Shown piece by piece: positions 16,987 through 39,356 of a DNA stretch of 64,000 bases. The stretch covers positions 1 to 64,000 of the forward strand of contig JAAUSF010000009.1 in NCBI GenBank assembly GCA_012033255.1. The letters run 5' to 3'. Source of the DNA: Cyanobacteria bacterium RU_5_0. Lineage in GTDB: Bacteria > Cyanobacteriota > Cyanobacteriia > Elainellales > Elainellaceae. The first letter of the stretch is position 1. Each line of letters starts with the position of its first letter. Both the position numbers and the translations under genes were made by a program. The notes beneath the pieces are model-generated. The model was given only the letters and a program-made list of their open reading frames with translations. It ran no database searches and had not been told where the DNA came from.

Positions 16987-17514
16987 TCAGTACGTATAGA
17001 CGGCTCCATTCGTCTCGATGCTGACGGTTGTTTGTCCGGGGATATCGCTGAGGGCTTCGCCAATCACGATCGTCACTACATTATCGGAGGCGATCACGTC
17101 CATGCTCAAGCCGATGTCTGGCGTTTCGGGATAAGCGACCAGGTAGATCGGCACGGGCAGAAAGCTAGTTGTGGTGGTGCCAAAGGTGATACTACCTCCA
17201 GGTGGAATGTCACGATCGGTGCTAGCAGGTTGGGTGAGGCGGCAGGTAATTGTGGTTCCTCCGGCGTTGATGATTTCGATTTGAATCGGACGGCTTGGAT
17301 CGACGCTAGCGATCGCTTGTCCGGCAGTTTGAGCAATGTCTAACTGAGCAATGTCTAACTGAGCAATGTCTAACTGAGCAATGTCTAACTGAGTAACATC
17401 GGGTTGAGTGATATCTTGAGCCGCGAGAGGCGTTGGCACAACTGCAATGGCGATCGGCAGAGTCATGCTTAGAGCAATGGCTGAAACGGGAATGGAGAAG
17501 AGATGAAATGGCAT
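16987..17514 (-). CDS. Secreted protein with DIAQL repeats
   Basis: From the ATG at 17514 the protein is 175 residues: a signal peptide (MPFHLFSIPVSAIALSMT..., cleavage likely after LAAQ), then a five-residue repeat LDIAQ encoded by four exact 15-bp units, then a globular domain of about 120 residues. The frame stays open to an ATG at 17655, overlapping the end of the kinase-like gene. The signal peptide favours the shorter form. No strong ribosome binding site is visible. I do not recognise the family. It is a likely periplasmic protein, possibly co-transcribed with the two genes upstream. Confidence 0.6.
   Translation of the reverse strand: MPFHLFSIPVSAIALSMTLPIAIAVVPTPLAAQDITQPDVTQLDIAQLDIAQLDIAQLDIAQTAGQAIASVDPSRPIQIEIINAGGTTITCRLTQPASTDRDIPPGGSITFGTTTTSFLPVPIYLVAYPETPDIGLSMDVIASDNVVTIVIGEALSDIPGQTTVSIETNGAVYTY
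17331..17390. repeat. Tandem repeat, 4 x 15 bp, in coding sequence
   Basis: Four exact copies of GAGCAATGTCTAACT lie end to end and encode the LDIAQ repeats of the secreted protein. Exact identity suggests recent expansion by slippage, so copy number may vary between strains. Confidence 0.9.
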
Positions 17515-17644: not shown

Positions 17645-18853
17645 TCATGGATCATCTCTCCGTGAGTGAATAGTGATTGGGAAATGAACGGTAAAGGTAG
17701 AACCTACGCCAAGCTCGGATATCACCTCGATTTCACCTTCAAGCATCTTAACCAACCGCAGAACGATCGCCAATCCCAAGCCTGTGCTGTTCGATTCAAA
17801 TGAATAATCGCGGCTATCGACTCGAAAGAAGGGGTCAAAAATGCGAGTTTGATCGTCTGGCGTAATTCCTACACCCGTATCTTGAATGGAGATGAACCAA
17901 CGATGGTCGGGTTGTTCTTGACAGCGAATGTTCACAGAGCCAGATTCGGTGTAACGAACAGCATTACTTAAAAGATTGGTAATAATTTGTTGAAGTCGCA
18001 ATGGGTCAGTCACAATCAGCGATGGTGCCAATTCACAATCCACTGTCACCCGTAATCCCTTGGCAGCGATCGCCGTTTCCATGACTTGAAGGGTTCGTTG
18101 AATCACAGAGGAAACATTGGTGGGCAAGGGGTGTAAGCGTAGCTGTCCGGCGTCATACCGGAGGAGTTCAGTGGTGTCATTGATTAAACGCAAGAGATGT
18201 CTACTGTTCCGCAATGCTCGCTCAATGTGTTCAATTCGAGGGGAAATACCGGATATTTCAGGGGATTGTCTCTGATGACGTAGAAATAGCTCCGTATGAC
18301 CAATCACCGAGCTTAACGGCGTCCTGAGCTTATCTGCTAATTGCTGGGACAGCGTGTCTTGACTGGTTTGAGCAAGGCGATTGATTTCCTGTTCCGCCAG
18401 GATCACCTGACGCTGCAACTTTTCCAGTTCCTTCAATCGCTCTTCCACATAGCTTTTGAAGCTCAGAGCGATCGCCTCATCCACAACCAGATCGATCAAA
18501 CGAAACACCCGATAGACTTCAACAGGTGATTCACTCATTAACTCTATCTCTAGGTTTGAGAAGATGGTGCTTCGCAATAAGCTATATTCTCGTGCAATCT
18601 CCGTTGGATCAAAGCCTTGTTCGGCTCGTAAAACCCCATGTTCCAAACTGGCAGCGGCTAAGGTTTGCACATCGTCCTTTTGGGTTTTAGAGAGGATAGT
18701 GACGATCGCCTGAAGGACGTGCGGGATGTGATCGCGGATTGCCTTAAACGACAGCGTATCGTCTGTTTTCATGTGCCTGTCTTGCCGCACAGCTTTTATC
18801 CATTGCTCAACAATGGTGTCCGCTCTTGCCGCAAGTAGTTGGCTGAAATTCAT
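17645..18853 (-). CDS. Histidine-kinase-like protein lacking the phosphoacceptor His
   Basis: The 402-residue cytoplasmic protein has an N-terminal all-helical domain resembling RsbRD/RsbR-type sensors (about 1-140), a coiled coil, a HisKA-like region and an intact HATPase_c domain (NLLSNAVRYT, DTGVGI, STGLGLAI). In the H-box the expected SHELRTP reads ADKLRTP, so Asp174 (GAT at 18332-18334) occupies the His position and Lys the Glu position. ATP binding is likely retained, but autophosphorylation at the usual site is not possible. The ATG at 18853 overlaps the stop of the upstream oxidoreductase (TGATG), with GAGGAAG as ribosome binding site, so translation should be coupled. Confidence 0.8.
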   Translation of the reverse strand: MNFSQLLAARADTIVEQWIKAVRQDRHMKTDDTLSFKAIRDHIPHVLQAIVTILSKTQKDDVQTLAAASLEHGVLRAEQGFDPTEIAREYSLLRSTIFSNLEIELMSESPVEVYRVFRLIDLVVDEAIALSFKSYVEERLKELEKLQRQVILAEQEINRLAQTSQDTLSQQLADKLRTPLSSVIGHTELFLRHQRQSPEISGISPRIEHIERALRNSRHLLRLINDTTELLRYDAGQLRLHPLPTNVSSVIQRTLQVMETAIAAKGLRVTVDCELAPSLIVTDPLRLQQIITNLLSNAVRYTESGSVNIRCQEQPDHRWFISIQDTGVGITPDDQTRIFDPFFRVDSRDYSFESNSTGLGLAIVLRLVKMLEGEIEVISELGVGSTFTVHFPITIHSRRDDP

Positions 18854-21710
18854 CACCGCGTCGCTTCCTCTAATAGGTGAATGTGCGATCGATAGATCTT
18901 TCCAGTGGCGCGGGTCATGCCAACTTCGCACATTCGATTGCTAGAAATGTAAGCATCGTAGGGTTTGCCCTCTAGATCCTCGGCTTCATGATGAGTAGCA
19001 GAGGCGGTGAGTTCTGGGAATGTGAACCCTCGATCGCCTGCAAAACCGCAGCAGTTGGCATTGAGAGGCACGATCACCTGATTGGCACAAGCATGGGCGA
19101 TCGCTTCCAGGTTTGGTTGTAATCCCATTTCCATGAGCGAACAGATCGGATGAAGGACAACTGAGTTCAGTTTGCGTGTGATTTGCAGATTAGGTAATAG
19201 CTTATCGTGAGCGAAGTCTACACTGTCATAAATCTTAAATTGATCAAATTTGGCTTGGTTTTCAGGCGTGAGTAAGTGACGACTGTTACGGAGATATTGA
19301 GAACAGGCACTCGCATCCATCACGATCGGGAGTTCTCCGTGGTTTGACCAGTTCCAGAGGCGATCGGTCGTTCGATTGGCACTGGCTTTCTCCGCATCCA
19401 CAAAGCCTTTCGCTTCAAACGCCAAGCCACAGCAGGTTCCAGTCACGCCAGACGGGAGATATAACGGTACATCTGCTCGATCGGCAAGCGTGACCAATGT
19501 AGCTTGCAATGAACGATCGCTCAGTTCACCGGGGATATTGCCACATATCCGAGTCATGCAAGAGGGTAAGTACACCGCTTTAGCCCCTTTCTGTTCTGTG
19601 ATGGGCAACGACTTGGTAGGTTGAGGAATTTCCGGACTCCAACGCGGAAACTGTGAGCCAATGATCGATCGAATCAGCCCTGTAATCCCGATCATTGTGC
19701 CTGCACCGAGCGTATTCTGGACAAGATGCCCTATGCCCAGTCCGACGCGGGCGGCCCGTTCGACGAGCGCAAAATTTTCGGCAGCGCGTTTGGCGATCGT
19801 TTCTGCAACCGATGAGTTTTCCTGATGGCGGAAGAGTCGCATTAATTCGCCTGTGTTGATTTTTACCGGACATGCCGTTGCACACATGCCATCTCCGGCG
19901 CAAGTATCCAGCCCCATGTAGGGATACTCTTTCTGCAACGCTTGCAGAAGGGGCGATTTGCCGTTTAACCCTTGCCGTACCATTTCGCGACGGACAACAA
20001 TGCGCTGACGCGGCGTCAGGGTAAGTTCGCGGCTAGGACAGACTCGTTCGCAGTAGCCACACTCAATGCATTTATCCGCGATCGCTTCGATCGTCGGAAT
20101 CGATTTCAGATCCTGCAAATGCGCCTTTGGATCAGAATTCACGATCACCCCCGGATTCAATAAATAATCTGGGTCAACGAGCGTTTTCAGGTGTCGCATG
20201 ATCTCAAGGGCTTCACCACCCCACTCCGCTTCCACGAAGGGAGCCATATTCCGACCCGTGCCATGTTCGGCTTTCAGTGCGCCATCATATTTTTTCACCA
20301 CCAATTCCACGACATCCTCAATCAGGTTGGCGTATTGCGCGATCGCCGCTTCATCGTTGAATGATTGCGTGATCACAAAATGCAAGTTTCCATCTTTCGC
20401 GTGACCATAAATGATGGCGTTGCCGTAACCATGTTTTTTGAACAGTTGAGTCAGGTCTACGGCGGCATCCGCGAGATGTTCGATCGGAAATGCCACATCC
20501 TCAATAATTGCAGTTGTACCGCTCTTGCGAACTGCCCCGATCGAAGGATACATCCCGTGACGAATATGCCAAAGCTGCTCTTGCTGAATTTTGTCCTCCG
20601 TGAAAACAGCAGGTTCTAGAAGGTGTAATCCGACGATCGTATTTTCTGCTGCCGCTTTCATCGCTGGGATTTCTGCCGCATCTGCAACCTGAAATTCGAC
20701 TAATAAACCCGCTGCATCATCGGGTAGCATTCGCATATAAAGCGGCATTCCAGGCTGATTTTCTACCGATCGCAACGATGCCCGATCCATCAGTTCTAGA
20801 GCTTTCGCGCCTGCATCCCGAAAGGGAACGATCGCCTCACAGGCAGCATGAAGATTAGGAAAAATTAGCAAACCTGTGTACTTGTAAGGCAGCACGGGCA
20901 CGGTATTTAGTATGGCTTCTGCAATGAATGCCAATGTTCCCTCAGAGCCAATCAGCACATGACTGAAGATGTCTACAGGTTTCTCATAATCAATAAAAGC
21001 GTTGAGCGCATATCCCATAGTATTCTTCATCCGATATTTAACTCGGATGCGCTGCGTTAATTCTGCGTTCGCTAAAATTTGCTCTCGGAGTTTTAGCAAT
21101 CCGTTTGTCAGTTCAGGTTCTTTGTCTCGAAACTGTTCATTTGCATTTGACTCAGCCGTGTTAATGACCGTTCCAGATGGCAACACAAACGTCAGGGAAT
21201 CCAGCGTATGATAAGCGTTTTGCGATACGCCACAGCACATGCCGCTAGAGTTGTTAGAAAGAATACCGCCTAAAGTGCAAGCGTTGATACTAGCCGGATC
21301 AGGACCAATTTTTGCTTTAAATGGCAGGAGAGTAAGATTGGCATATCCGCCGATTACGCCGGGTTCAACCTGGAGTTTTTTGCCATCTTCTAAAACTGAG
21401 ATTCTCTGCCAATTGCGTTTTACCTCTACCAAAATACCATCCGTCACAGACTGCCCAGAAAGACTGGTGCCGGCCGATCGAAACGTCAACGGAATCCGTC
21501 GTTGCCGACTGTATTGAAAGAGTGCCTGAATTTCCTGAATTGAATTGGGAAAACAATCACCTTTGGGATCAGGTGATAGAAGCTGGCATCGGAGGCAAAA
21601 GCGATTAAGTCGATCGGACGATCTAGGATTCGATCGACAGCTATGATTTGGGCAAGTTCGTTCCGCAGCCCATTCGGAGTTCCCTGAGCAAGACTGAAAT
21701 TCTTTACCAT
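18853..21710 (-). pseudogene. FAD-linked oxidase fused to Fe-S/CCG domains (YdiJ-like), frameshifted near the N-terminus
   Basis: This product of about 950 residues would combine an FAD_binding_4 domain (FRSAGTSLSGQS), an FAD-oxidase C-terminal domain, two 4Fe-4S motifs (CIECGYCERVCP and CAGDGMCATACP) and two cysteine-rich CCG segments (TGTCCGLAFEAKG and NANCCGFAGDRGF). That is the layout of YdiJ/D-lactate-dehydrogenase-type 2-hydroxyacid oxidases. The N-terminal 55 residues (from ATG 21710, with GGAGAA upstream) run in one frame to PKVIVFP, and the rest continues in another frame from NSIQEIQALF. One missing base at about 21545-21550 explains the break. Either the gene is damaged or the base call is wrong. 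Confidence 0.82.
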
Positions 21711-21875
21711 GTTCTTCTCCATGCCCCATTTCGGCAGGCACTATGTATCGGAGCTAACCTGCGAATGCCAAGTGTTGACTTAACACGATTGTAGCGATCG
21801 TCAAGTTTCGATGATGGAAGAAATCGTAAGAATTTCAGGCTAACCTAATCATCCAACTTCAGGAGGGTTCTGCGT

Positions 21876-22412
21876 TCATGTCGGAGTTGTTTCAGCGGAG
21901 GTTGCTGCAACTGGAGGGGGTTCAGGCTGAAGCTGTGCGGGTGGAATCGTCAATACGGCACATTGAGCATGATGGGTAACAAAATTACTGATACTGCCCC
22001 AAAACAATTCAGTCAGCCCTTTGTAACCATGACGACCCATAATAATCAGATCGGCTTTCCAGGTGTCTGCCAAATTGCAAATTGCTGGACCTGGTTCACC
22101 AAAGGCTTGAGTGAATTCAGTGGAAATTCCTTCTTTTGTCGCTCGATCGGTCAACGTCTGCAAAAACGATAATCCTTGCTGTTCAAGCTTTTCCCAGGCT
22201 TCGCGGTAATCCTCAATCAGGCGGGTATGTAAACCAGAATAGATCGCATCGCGCCCTGGATAAATTGGATCAGCATAGCCCGATTTAAAGGGAGACAACA
22301 CATTAATTAGCATCAAATTGGCATGGGTTGCCTTAGCCATAGCCAGGGCTTGCTCAAAGGCAAGTTTGCTGAGATCAGAATCGTCGATCGCCACCAAGAT
22401 CTTTTGAAACAT
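21876..22412 (-). CDS. Universal stress protein (UspA family)
   Basis: The protein has 178 residues from the ATG at 22412. This start is preferred to an upstream ATG at 22427 because GGGGAGA lies 7 bases before it and the family begins FQKILVAIDDS. The ATP-binding motif G-x2-G-x9-G-S is present as GRHGYKGLTELFWGS. The last 25 residues are a Pro/Ala/Thr-rich tail beyond the core. Usp proteins bind ATP and dimerise under stress. It has its own upstream region, and the next minus-strand gene is the oxidoreductase. Confidence 0.88.
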   Translation of the reverse strand: MFQKILVAIDDSDLSKLAFEQALAMAKATHANLMLINVLSPFKSGYADPIYPGRDAIYSGLHTRLIEDYREAWEKLEQQGLSFLQTLTDRATKEGISTEFTQAFGEPGPAICNLADTWKADLIIMGRHGYKGLTELFWGSISNFVTHHAQCAVLTIPPAQLQPEPPPVAATSAETTPT

Positions 22413-22538
22413 GATAGATCTCCCCATAGTACTCCGCCATAATAGCAGACCTGTATTCAGGCATTCATGTATTCAGGACTACTGAAAAATCTAAACTGAA
22501 GCAAAGCATTTGTAGCAACCTCAAATTGATCTCTGCGC

Positions 22539-23408
22539 CTAATCTTCCTGTCCTAACATTTCCCGCGCTTGTAGAAGTTCCTGTCGCTGCTCTTTACTAA
22601 CGATCGGATATTGTAACTTGAGTGCTTGTAGCTTGGTATTGATGACATCTGCCACCGCTAAATGAGTAAACCACTTGTGATTAGCAGGGATGATATACCA
22701 GGGTGCCCACTCCGTACTAGTGTGGTTGAACATATCTTCATAAACGGTCATATAATCTTTCCAGAAAGTACGCTCCTTTACATCTGACGCTGAAAATTTC
22801 CAGTTCTTTTCAGGACGATCGATTCGTTCTAAAAAGCGTTTCTTTTGCACAGCTTTAGAGATATTCAGAAAAAATTTAAGAATGATAATTCCATTGTTCA
22901 CTAAATACTTCTCAAAATTGTTAATCTCCTCAAATCGACGCTTCCAAATCTCTTTTCCTTTCGCTTCCGGCGGCAATTGTTGCTTCGCCAAAATTTCCGG
23001 ATGCACCCGCACCACCAACACTTCTTCGTAATACGATCGGTTGAAGATCCCAATCCGCCCTCGTTCGGGTAATGCCTTCATCGATCGCCACAAATAGTCG
23101 TGATCTAACTCTTCTTCTGAAGGAGCCTTGAAGCTATAAACCTGACAGCCCTGCGGATTCACACCCGACATCACATGCTTAATCGTTCCATCTTTCCCGG
23201 CAGCATCCATCGCCTGAAAAATCAGCAGTAAAGCATAGGTGTTTTGGGCATAGAGGACATCCTGATACTCTCCTAGCCGTTTGATGTCAGATTGCAATTT
23301 GCCTGTTGCATCCTTCTTTGTGATGTAGTCTGCCTTGTAGGAGGGGTCAAAGTCTTTCTCAAGCGAAATTGCTGAATTCGGTTTGACGATGAAGCGATCG
23401 TGTTTCAT
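22539..23408 (-). CDS. ppk2: Polyphosphate kinase 2 family protein
   Basis: The protein (289 residues) uses polyphosphate to phosphorylate nucleotides, or the reverse. It has the PPK2 Walker A segment FQAMDAAGKDGTIKHV, the lid RSYYEEVLVVRVHP and the Walker B-like IIILKFFLNISK. The ATG at 23408 is chosen because the family starts at about this point; an in-frame ATG at 23474 would add 22 non-conserved residues. Substrate class (ADP or AMP) cannot be decided from sequence here. It is monocistronic. Confidence 0.88.
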   Translation of the reverse strand: MKHDRFIVKPNSAISLEKDFDPSYKADYITKKDATGKLQSDIKRLGEYQDVLYAQNTYALLLIFQAMDAAGKDGTIKHVMSGVNPQGCQVYSFKAPSEEELDHDYLWRSMKALPERGRIGIFNRSYYEEVLVVRVHPEILAKQQLPPEAKGKEIWKRRFEEINNFEKYLVNNGIIILKFFLNISKAVQKKRFLERIDRPEKNWKFSASDVKERTFWKDYMTVYEDMFNHTSTEWAPWYIIPANHKWFTHLAVADVINTKLQALKLQYPIVSKEQRQELLQAREMLGQED

Positions 23409-23669
23409 GTTAGAGCCACTCTCATCATTGGTGTAGTGGGCGCTACACACCCTAAGAACCTGTTTGAGAAGCATCGGTCGGGGCAGACACGTTGGTCTGC
23501 CCTCTAATCCAGGACAACCCCACTGGGATTGCCCCTACACCCCACCATCGATCAACAGAAAATTTACAGGTGGTAAAAATACTGTTTAAACCCCTCATGA
23601 GACTGATGGTAATCCTTGAGTCGCGGAGTGGTAGAGTTTATCGCAGGGGTCGTAACGAAATGAAAAGGT

Positions 23670-36618: not shown

Positions 36619-37089
36619 TTAGTGTTGACCCAATACAGCAATCGCTATTGCTGGCTCTGAAGGGCGATCGGTTTGGAAGAAGCCAGAATAACCACCTAAC
36701 CAGGCTTTGAGGGTTGTCAGCATTCGAGTGGTTTGTGTAAGGCTATGGTAATCCGTTTGTCTTTTTGGAGAAACCGCTGTTTCGCCCAACTCTTCTTGAG
36801 TCTCCGATTGCCTATCTGAAGGATGGAGCGGCAGATTCTCCACCAATTCTCGGTTGGCATAAACACAAAACAAAGGAGCCGTATCTCCGCAGGATGCAAT
36901 ATTCCAGCTTGAAGTGGTGATAGCGGTTCCTAGGGCAGTTTTCCAAGATATTTCAGCGATCGGCGCAGTTGAGGCAGCTAGATCCAGATTTTGCGATTGC
37001 CCACTTTCAGGTTGTGCAAGAGTGCGAAGGCTAGTCACGGTGACAGCAATAACGGCAGCAGTGAGGAGGAGGCGATAGCGTCGAAGCAT
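36619..37089 (-). CDS. Secreted hypothetical protein
   Basis: The 156-residue protein has an N-terminal signal peptide (MLRRYRLLLTAAVIAVTVTSL, likely cleaved after LAQ). A Ser/Thr-rich region follows, with two cysteines (residues 67 and 74) that could form a disulfide. I do not recognise the family. It is divergent from the first lysozyme gene. Confidence 0.55.
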   Translation of the reverse strand: MLRRYRLLLTAAVIAVTVTSLRTLAQPESGQSQNLDLAASTAPIAEISWKTALGTAITTSSWNIASCGDTAPLFCVYANRELVENLPLHPSDRQSETQEELGETAVSPKRQTDYHSLTQTTRMLTTLKAWLGGYSGFFQTDRPSEPAIAIAVLGQH

Positions 37090-37299
37090 AGTTCAAGCTT
37101 GTATTGCCAGCAAATAATGTCATCCACTGTGAAACCTCCATTTCCGTCAGTGGAATTCCGCAGGGTGAGCGCATCTTCAAGCAATCTTCATCGATCGCTC
37201 AGGGTGTCGCTGCCCTCAGCCCAACTGGGAACGTTAACGATTAAACTCGTCGATTATTTAGCGATCGGTTTGCCAATCACAACTGCTAGGAATTGTGCT

Positions 37300-38115
37300 A
37301 TGACTTCTTCTCCAAAACCTATTTCGCAGGCTGCATCCACTCCGGTTTACACCCTCAACATTGTGACGGATACTTGGCTAAAACTCAGCACAGTTCAAGG
37401 CTCGGTTCTGCCAGATGATCAACGGCAATTTGTCAGTTCAGGGACCCTGCTGCCGATCGCCAGCTATGCTCGTGTGGACAATGACCACATCAAAGTCACA
37501 TTCGGTCTGGATAGCCAGGGTAAACAAGTCTTTTTCAAGGGGCGCAACACCTGGTATGTTTACCGTCCAGTGGTGCAAATTCTCAAGAATGGACAGGCGA
37601 TCGATCCCTCTGCACTATCTAATTCTGCGCCAATCAATCCTACACCAGCCAATTTAGCCCGCCGTGGGAAAATCAGTGCCAAAGGGTTACGATTGCTGAA
37701 ATCCTTTGAAGGATTGGAATTGGAAGCTTATATTGATGCAGTTGGCGTGTGGACGATCGGCTATGGCACCACGACAGGAGTGACTCCAGGAATGCGGATT
37801 ACCGAAGCCCAAGCCGAGGAGTTTCTCAAGCGAGATTTAATGAAATTTGAGAATGCCGTTTCCAAATTGGTTAAAGTGTCATTGAATGACGATCAGTTTT
37901 CGGCACTGGTGACATTTGTTTACAACGTGGGCGATGGCGCATTCGCTGATTCCACACTATTGAGATTGCTGAACCGACGCGATTATCAAGGTGCTGCCGA
38001 TCAGCTTTTGCGCTGGAATAAAGGTAATGGTGGTGTGGAATTGGCAGGTCTAACGCGACGACGCAAAGCAGAACGAGCGTTGTTCCTCAGTCAAGATTTC
38101 ACCCTGTTCTTGTAA
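37300..38115 (+). CDS. GH24 (T4-type) lysozyme with one SH3-like domain
   Basis: The protein has 271 residues from ATG 37300. The frame is open further upstream but overlaps the divergent gene, and the paralogue aligns from this Met. Residues about 18-100 form an SH3b-like domain ([28 protein letters not shown]). The C-terminal 150 residues are a GH24 muramidase with catalytic Glu in [20 protein letters not shown] and Thr in TIGYGTT. It should hydrolyse peptidoglycan. No signal peptide, holin or other phage gene is nearby. Confidence 0.88.
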   Translation: MTSSPKPISQAASTPVYTLNIVTDTWLKLSTVQGSVLPDDQRQFVSSGTLLPIASYARVDNDHIKVTFGLDSQGKQVFFKGRNTWYVYRPVVQILKNGQAIDPSALSNSAPINPTPANLARRGKISAKGLRLLKSFEGLELEAYIDAVGVWTIGYGTTTGVTPGMRITEAQAEEFLKRDLMKFENAVSKLVKVSLNDDQFSALVTFVYNVGDGAFADSTLLRLLNRRDYQGAADQLLRWNKGNGGVELAGLTRRRKAERALFLSQDFTLFL

Positions 38116-38240
38116 ATTCCCGTAAATTCCTGACAGGATTTTGTGTATACACGGTAGCCACTAGGATTGCTGAAGCAGGAACTACTGATCACTCCAGTGG
38201 TAACTTGATGCGATCGCCTACCTACGCAGAACGGAATACC

Positions 38241-39356
38241 ATGACCCAAACTCCCAAACCTGCAACCTCAGCCTACACTCTTAGAGCAGTGTCGGATACT
38301 TGGTTTAAGCAAAGTACGGCTCAGAGTTCAACCTTGCCGGATGATCAAAAACTATTCATCAAATCGGGGTTCTCAGTGCCGCTATCAAGCTTTCAGCCTG
38401 TCGCAAATGATCATGTTAAAGTTGCGCTCGGCTTAGATAAACAAGGAAATCAGTTGCAATTGAGAGGACGCAACACCTGGTATGTCTACTATCCTTCTAT
38501 TCAGATTCTACGGAATGGGCAAGCCGTACCGATCAATTCGCTACCTGCACCCACTCCCGCCCCTCCTACTCCTGCCCCTCCCATTCCTACCCCTACTCCC
38601 ACGCCAACTCCACCATCAGGATATGCCCTAAGAGCATCAACAGATATTTGGTTGAAGCAAAGCACGGCTCAGGGTTCAACCTTGCCCGATGACCAACGGC
38701 AATTCATTAGCGGCGGAACGACTCTCTCTTTATCAAGTTTTGCGTTAGCTGAAAATGATCATCTCAGAATCACGTTTGGCTTAGATAGGCAAGGGAATCA
38801 GATTCAGTTCAAAGGGCGTAACACCTGGTATGTCTATCGTCCGGCTGTCCAAATTTTGCGAAACGGACAACCGATCGACCTCAACCCACCCACCCCTTCG
38901 CCATCGGGCAGACGGATTAATGCCAAAGGGCTGCGCTTGCTGAAATCGTTTGAGGGTCTAAGACTAGAGGCGTATCTCGATCCGGTTGGCATTTGGACGA
39001 TCGGCTATGGCACCACGTCGGGCATCGGACCCGGTATGGTAATCACCGAAGCCGAAGCCGAAGCCTTTCTCAGACGAGACTTAAGACGATTTGAGGGCGC
39101 AGTCATAGATTTAGTCACTGTCCCCGTAACCGACGATCAGTTTTCCGCCTTGGTATCGTTTACCTACAACGTAGGTGAGGGCGCGCTAGCCGGTTCAACC
39201 TTGCTGAGGCTGCTGAATCGAGGTGATTATCAAGGCGCTGCCGATCAGCTTTTGCGCTGGAACCAGGGAGATGGCGAAGTCTTGCCAGGGCTAACACGAC
39301 GGAGGAGAGCAGAAAGGGCACTGTTTCTAGGTCAAGATCATACGGTGTTTTTGTGA
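38241..39356 (+). CDS. GH24 lysozyme with two SH3-like domains, tandem paralogue
   Basis: The protein (371 residues) repeats the design of the preceding gene but has two SH3b-like modules ([19 protein letters not shown] and [19 protein letters not shown]) joined by a Pro/Thr linker, then the GH24 domain with [17 protein letters not shown] and TIGYGTT. The catalytic residues are intact. The ATG at 38241 is chosen by alignment with the paralogue; 38208 is an alternative. Tandem arrangement and high similarity indicate duplication followed by gain or loss of one module. Confidence 0.87.

Follow-up and report, generated by a model that had tools for sequence, protein, structure and literature searches.

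A conserved clade of cyanobacterial RsbRD_N histidine kinase-like proteins without the H-box histidine, probably pseudo-histidine kinases

Results

Gene content of the locus

The window (the whole stretch of 64,000 nucleotides that was analysed, from contig JAAUSF010000009.1 of Cyanobacteria bacterium RU_5_0) carries at 17645..18853, on the minus strand, an open reading frame of 402 aa whose translation contains TLSQQLADKLRTPLSSVIGHTELFLRHQ. Pfam placed an RsbRD_N domain at residues 3-102, a HisKA domain at residues 166-236 (29.1 bits against a cut-off of 26.9) and a HATPase_c domain at residues 283-394 (100.2 bits), and gave no PAS match at E ≤ 0.001. On the minus strand, the N-terminal RsbRD_N region as a whole (residues 1-133) occupies 18455..18853 and HATPase_c, with intact N, G1, F and G2 boxes, 17672..18007. 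The plasmid collection held no homologue of the protein at E ≤ 1e-50.

The H-box reads LADKLRTP (codons gca gat aag ctc agg acg ccg for ADKLRTP), and the codons GAT AAG at 18329..18334 (minus strand) encode Asp174-Lys175 where intact homologues have His-Glu or His-Asp. At 18341..18346 (minus strand) lie Gln170-Gln171; column 170 is a one-residue insertion common only to the window protein and its nearest homologue, L128 (see below), and is gapped in all 116 aligned rows with an intact H-box. Translation, codons and alignment bear out the original prediction, which did not mention the minus strand, that an Asp encoded by GAT and a Lys stand in place of the usual His and Glu and that the N (NLLSNAVRYT), G1 (DTGVGI) and G2 (GLGLAIV) boxes are intact. 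The protein has the HisKA match, the DHp (dimerisation/histidine-phosphotransfer) helical fold (model helices 110-196 and 204-234) and the HATPase_c boxes of a HisKA-type sensor histidine kinase, and lacks the phosphoacceptor His, which is present in none (0/6) of the clade members described below.

Upstream, at 18853..21741 on the same minus strand, lies the gene of a 962-aa FAD/4Fe-4S oxidase with the Pfam domains FAD_binding_4, FAD-oxidase_C and 4Fe-4S, which resembles a GlcD+GlcF fusion by NCBIfam matches that all fall below their cut-offs. As had been noted for the sequence TGATG, its stop codon TGA (18855-18853) and the ATG of the kinase-like gene (18853-18851) share one base. Further upstream of the oxidase, at 21876-23474 on the same strand, lie genes for a universal stress protein and for the polyphosphate kinase PPK2. 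A perfect 15-bp tandem repeat of 4.3 copies (17330-17393) encodes LDIAQ repeats in a small downstream open reading frame that has no Pfam match, and two adjacent open reading frames at 36991-38115 and 38205-39356 both match Phage_lysozyme, apparently as a tandem pair.

We also read 80 other HisKA places in the window genome, two of which contain a pair of matches; His is present in 76, and the four exceptions are L223 (Gln), L225 (Gln), L241 (Leu) and L248 (Tyr), on contigs C144, C190, C228 and C195, respectively. His-less kinases are a minority in this genome, yet not unique.

The histidine is missing throughout one clade

A first set of 40 orthologues from near relatives and from named Nostoc, Calothrix, Leptolyngbya and other genomes carried His-Glu without exception and suggested an oddity of the window alone. 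This reading was overturned by a search of 388 genomes of the class, in which up to four candidates were scored per genome, making paralogue counts lower bounds. Among 123 distinct homologue rows (each with an open frame of 300 aa or more, a match at E ≤ 1e-70 and coverage of no fewer than 300 query residues, after merging of identical rows), the H position is His in 116, Asp in five, Ser in one and Gln in one. The nearest homologue among the 388 genomes, at 67% identity, is L105/L128 in G303, a genome of another family; it reads LSQQFTSKLKVPL, with Ser for His, Lys for Glu and the same extra Gln as in the window. Four further genes (L129-L132), from four genomes of one genus, read LVTDELNVRL or a close variant, with Asp for His and Arg for Pro. 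A single miscall, against which the original prediction had argued from the additional Glu-to-Lys change, is rejected as the cause of Asp174, since this nearest homologue and the four further relatives lack His as well.

The six His-less rows form one clade, with members from two families and three genera in the genome set. In a tree of these six and the 54 most similar other rows, built without the H-box columns, the clade had support of 100/99, was recovered in 100% of 200 bootstrap trees and required one state change; in the tree of all 123 rows, likewise without the H-box columns, the six again grouped (SH-aLRT 99) and two state changes were needed. We judge the presence of His in 116/116 intact homologues and its absence from all six members of one clade to be more than chance. 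The intact rows (40-56% identity) have the three-domain layout throughout the alignment. An intact paralogue (LAHELKTP) is also present in three genomes of the genus (G114, G165 and G279), and no intact close paralogue was found at the thresholds used in the window genome (G000, 89% complete), G303 or G308. The remaining non-His row, L165 in G132 (46% identity), is an RsbRD_N kinase homologue with Gln for His that lies outside the clade and represents a second, separate loss.

Overall, the orthologues do not uniformly carry SHE, since the six-member clade and the Gln row lack His, and the idea of an ATP-site-intact, kinase-like protein without phosphoacceptor gains support from five relatives in one clade with the same loss. 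Of the pattern for which an alignment had been proposed, the part that stood is a non-His residue conserved across the clade; the oxidase neighbour is not conserved with it, and 116 of the 123 rows keep His.

The residue pair at H and H+1 is D-K in the window protein, S-K in the G303 homologue and D-E in the four genus members. Asp (5/6) and Ser (1/6) are both chemically phosphorylatable, the ATP site is intact, and the window DHp also contains His186 and His193; phosphate could in principle still be transferred, with Asp174 or another residue as acceptor. We consider this very improbable, as His186 and His193 are absent from the other five members and the Glu at H+1 has become Lys in two of the six. 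We know of no HisKA kinase that is phosphorylated on Asp at the H position.

The ATP site is kept and change is concentrated in the DHp domain

The ATP-site residues N297, D325, G327, G329, G358 and G360 are kept in all six His-less rows. Next to the ATP-site motifs, N293 is Ser in one clade member and I363 is Ser in another, and the CA domain of the four genus members deviates at S296, 342 and T357 (the last is Lys in all four), so that their ATP binding may be weaker.

We then took the positions with a residue conserved in 90% or more of the 116 intact rows and counted those kept by all six His-less proteins: 23/26 (N-terminal region), 6/8 (linker), 10/25 (DHp) and 30/40 (CA domain). As a control, five intact paralogues from the genus of L129-L132 kept 26/26, 8/8, 24/25 and 39/41, respectively, and the change in the His-less proteins is therefore concentrated in the DHp domain. 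Within the genus, NG86 dN/dS was 0.10-0.15 for the His-less genes (six pairs) and 0.05-0.08 for intact paralogues (ten pairs). Because the former is about twice the latter, constraint on the His-less genes appears somewhat relaxed. Comparisons with the window gene were saturated at synonymous sites (dS 2.6 or infinite).

An alternative explanation is that the gene is decaying, a former kinase in the course of losing its function. The faster DHp divergence of the clade, the doubled dN/dS and the N293S and I363S changes beside the ATP-site motifs would agree with this. However, six open reading frames persist over two families with the key ATP-site residues in 6/6, the DHp has remained conserved within the genus after the His was lost (pN 0.04-0.09), and the within-genus dN/dS itself argues against decay. 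The gene looks retained rather than broken, and we regard decay as unlikely.

The motif E/DxxT/N is described as the phosphatase motif of HisKA transmitters in the available text of PMC11502775. It is present after the H position in 93 of the 116 intact rows and broken in all six His-less proteins, with K-L-R-T in the window protein and H+1/H+4 residues of K/T, K/V and, in four members, E/V across the clade. A phosphatase role, one of those suggested originally, finds no support here: a response-regulator phosphatase without kinase activity would be in keeping with the retained DHp fold and most specificity positions (see below), but with its motif broken in 6/6 we hold this to be the least probable of the explanations considered.

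The oxidase is a neighbour in the window only

An oxidase gene beside such a kinase-like gene was found neither in 41 other loci, which represent fewer distinct places (some are short or have the gene doubled, e.g. L053 and L055), nor in a further 12 loci. Conservation of the oxidase neighbour across orthologues is rejected; among these loci, the adjacency is confined to the window. At E ≤ 1e-60, one of 25 near-relative genomes contained the oxidase, namely the window genome itself. Class-wide, with two candidates scored per genome and counts that are accordingly lower bounds, the oxidase was found at E ≤ 1e-100 in 2/388 genomes, the window genome and G303 (72% identity); the two most similar His-less genes, a sister pair in the tree, come from exactly these genomes. 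Under independent distributions, drawing the same genome pair by chance would have a probability of 1 in 75,078 (pairs from 388), a post hoc figure confounded by possible gene transfer. The two genomes do not appear to be simply close kin: PNPase identity to G303 is 81-84% (in two pieces) against 82-89% within family f1, and G303 has the accessory neighbours Usp, PPK2 and alcohol dehydrogenase at levels ordinary for these genomes. The PNPase gene of G303 (G303:C1:4492739-4494875) is split into two overlapping pieces, which points to a frameshift, either real or introduced by the assembly.

The TGATG overlap, the co-occurrence in these two genomes and their distance by PNPase would all suit a dedicated regulator of the FAD/Fe-S oxidase that is translated together with it. 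However, the two genes lie about 1.08 Mb apart in G303, the genomes of the other four members have no oxidase at E ≤ 1e-100, and the pattern could also arise, with no functional link, from a shared transfer between the two genomes. The suggested regulation of the oxidase had been read from a one-base overlap that occurs in the window genome alone, and what remains of it is the co-occurrence in 2/388 genomes; the oxidase-kinase link is weak and such a dedicated role is doubtful.

Other members have other neighbours. In L129-L132 (4/4), a gene for the magnesium-chelatase subunit ChlD (TIGR02031, above cut-off) lies downstream of the His-less gene in the same orientation, no more than about 100 bases away, an adjacency that is synteny in one genus. 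The G303 copy sits between a gene that we take to be FtsH-like and a dynamin-like gene. In five genomes of the ChlD genus (L134-L138), the intact paralogue adjoins a kinase-like gene of about 1250 aa in divergent orientation.

Structure model and response-regulator positions

An AlphaFold2 model of the window protein, built with 18 orthologues, had a mean pLDDT of 79.2 and a pTM of 0.52, with a weak stretch at residues 348-354 that is presumably the ATP lid. A single helix over residues 110-196, the long first DHp helix, contains Asp174. Foldseek searches against the PDB matched the model to solved histidine kinase cores including GacS, HK853, DivL (4q20) and RetS (6dk7). Specificity positions were mapped by eye, from HK853 alignments and the rewired positions in the title of 4jas, to residues 182, 185, 189, 212 and 215. 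The window protein matched the intact consensus at 5/5 of these, L128 at 3/5 and the other four members at 4/5; the rest of the DHp matched it at 25-28 of 36 positions across the clade (25/36 in the window protein), so that 5/5 is no clear enrichment. This retention is compatible with response-regulator docking, a weak indication.

Discussion

The sequences show that one clade of six has lost the His and has no E/DxxT/N motif, that its ATP-site motifs are intact and that purifying selection acts in one genus. We propose, with a probability of roughly two in three, that the window protein is a conserved, allosteric pseudo-histidine kinase and a paralogue of a common cyanobacterial RsbRD_N histidine kinase. 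In this reading, both the phosphoacceptor His and the phosphatase motif disappeared from the paralogue, while a DHp domain, an intact ATP site and the N-terminal domain were kept. We infer that ATP would be bound without H-box autophosphorylation and that the protein would act allosterically through its DHp helices; intact boxes are no guarantee of ATP binding, because DivL itself binds an ATP analogue poorly. Among the roles named in the original prediction, scaffold or allosteric regulator appears the best option.

Two routes are conceivable for such an allosteric pseudo-histidine kinase: like DivL, it could bind a response regulator, or it could pair with an active kinase, which is one reported way of RetS and RocA; its partner would not be a fixed neighbour gene. 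A heterodimer with an intact close paralogue would fit G114, G165 and G279, each of which carries one. The active-kinase route is weakened because G000, G303 and G308 yielded no such paralogue at the thresholds applied. A more speculative and rather improbable version is that the ATP-bound HATPase domain of the clade serves as a nucleotide-occupancy switch whose state is passed to RsbRD_N or to a redox enzyme inherited with it, the partner in the window lineage being the GlcD/GlcF-like oxidase. If true, this would be a reversal of the usual kinase direction.

Within the literature covered, few pseudo-histidine kinases from bacteria have been described in detail (DivL, RetS, RocA and a laboratory-evolved ChrS), none of them cyanobacterial. 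By title and abstract, in a coverage that leaves out most subscription journals, we found no description of a His-less RsbRD_N kinase in cyanobacteria. According to the available text of PMC4558063, one published census dropped proteins without the histidine when they were identified, and such clades can therefore be missed.

In the broad, DivL-like sense of a pseudo-histidine kinase, the His loss is conserved in an orthologue group, here the clade of six. As in Caulobacter DivL, whose structure 4q20 the model matches, the H-box His is replaced across the orthologue group and the other boxes are kept. For DivL, the available text of PMC4211667 reports no kinase or phosphatase activity and poor binding of an ATP analogue. 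However, DivL, an alphaproteobacterial protein, has PAS input domains and a Tyr in the H position, whereas the cyanobacterial clade has Asp or Ser and RsbRD_N, with Lys at H+1 in 2/6; the window protein, with Asp and RsbRD_N, is not a DivL orthologue. Pseudomonas RetS, which regulates GacS, similarly has a kinase-like core (structural match 6dk7) and acts on another kinase. It retains HExxT and has a degenerate HATPase domain without G-boxes, as far as the available text of PMC5992135 describes it, and is in this respect a mirror image of the window clade, which has lost the phosphatase motif together with the His but keeps the HATPase boxes. The RocA protein of group A Streptococcus, which acts through CovS, is also kinase-like, with regulatory activity independent of the H-box His; unlike the clade, it is a membrane protein, several kinase residues are missing from its CA domain, and its His is still present but dispensable (all according to the available text of PMC7028121). 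The intact cyanobacterial RsbRD_N histidine kinases share the layout of the clade but have His-Glu/Asp in 116/116 and E/DxxT/N in 93/116 rows. With an intact paralogue also encoded in three of its genomes, the clade offers a natural before/after pair for a kinase core without catalysis.
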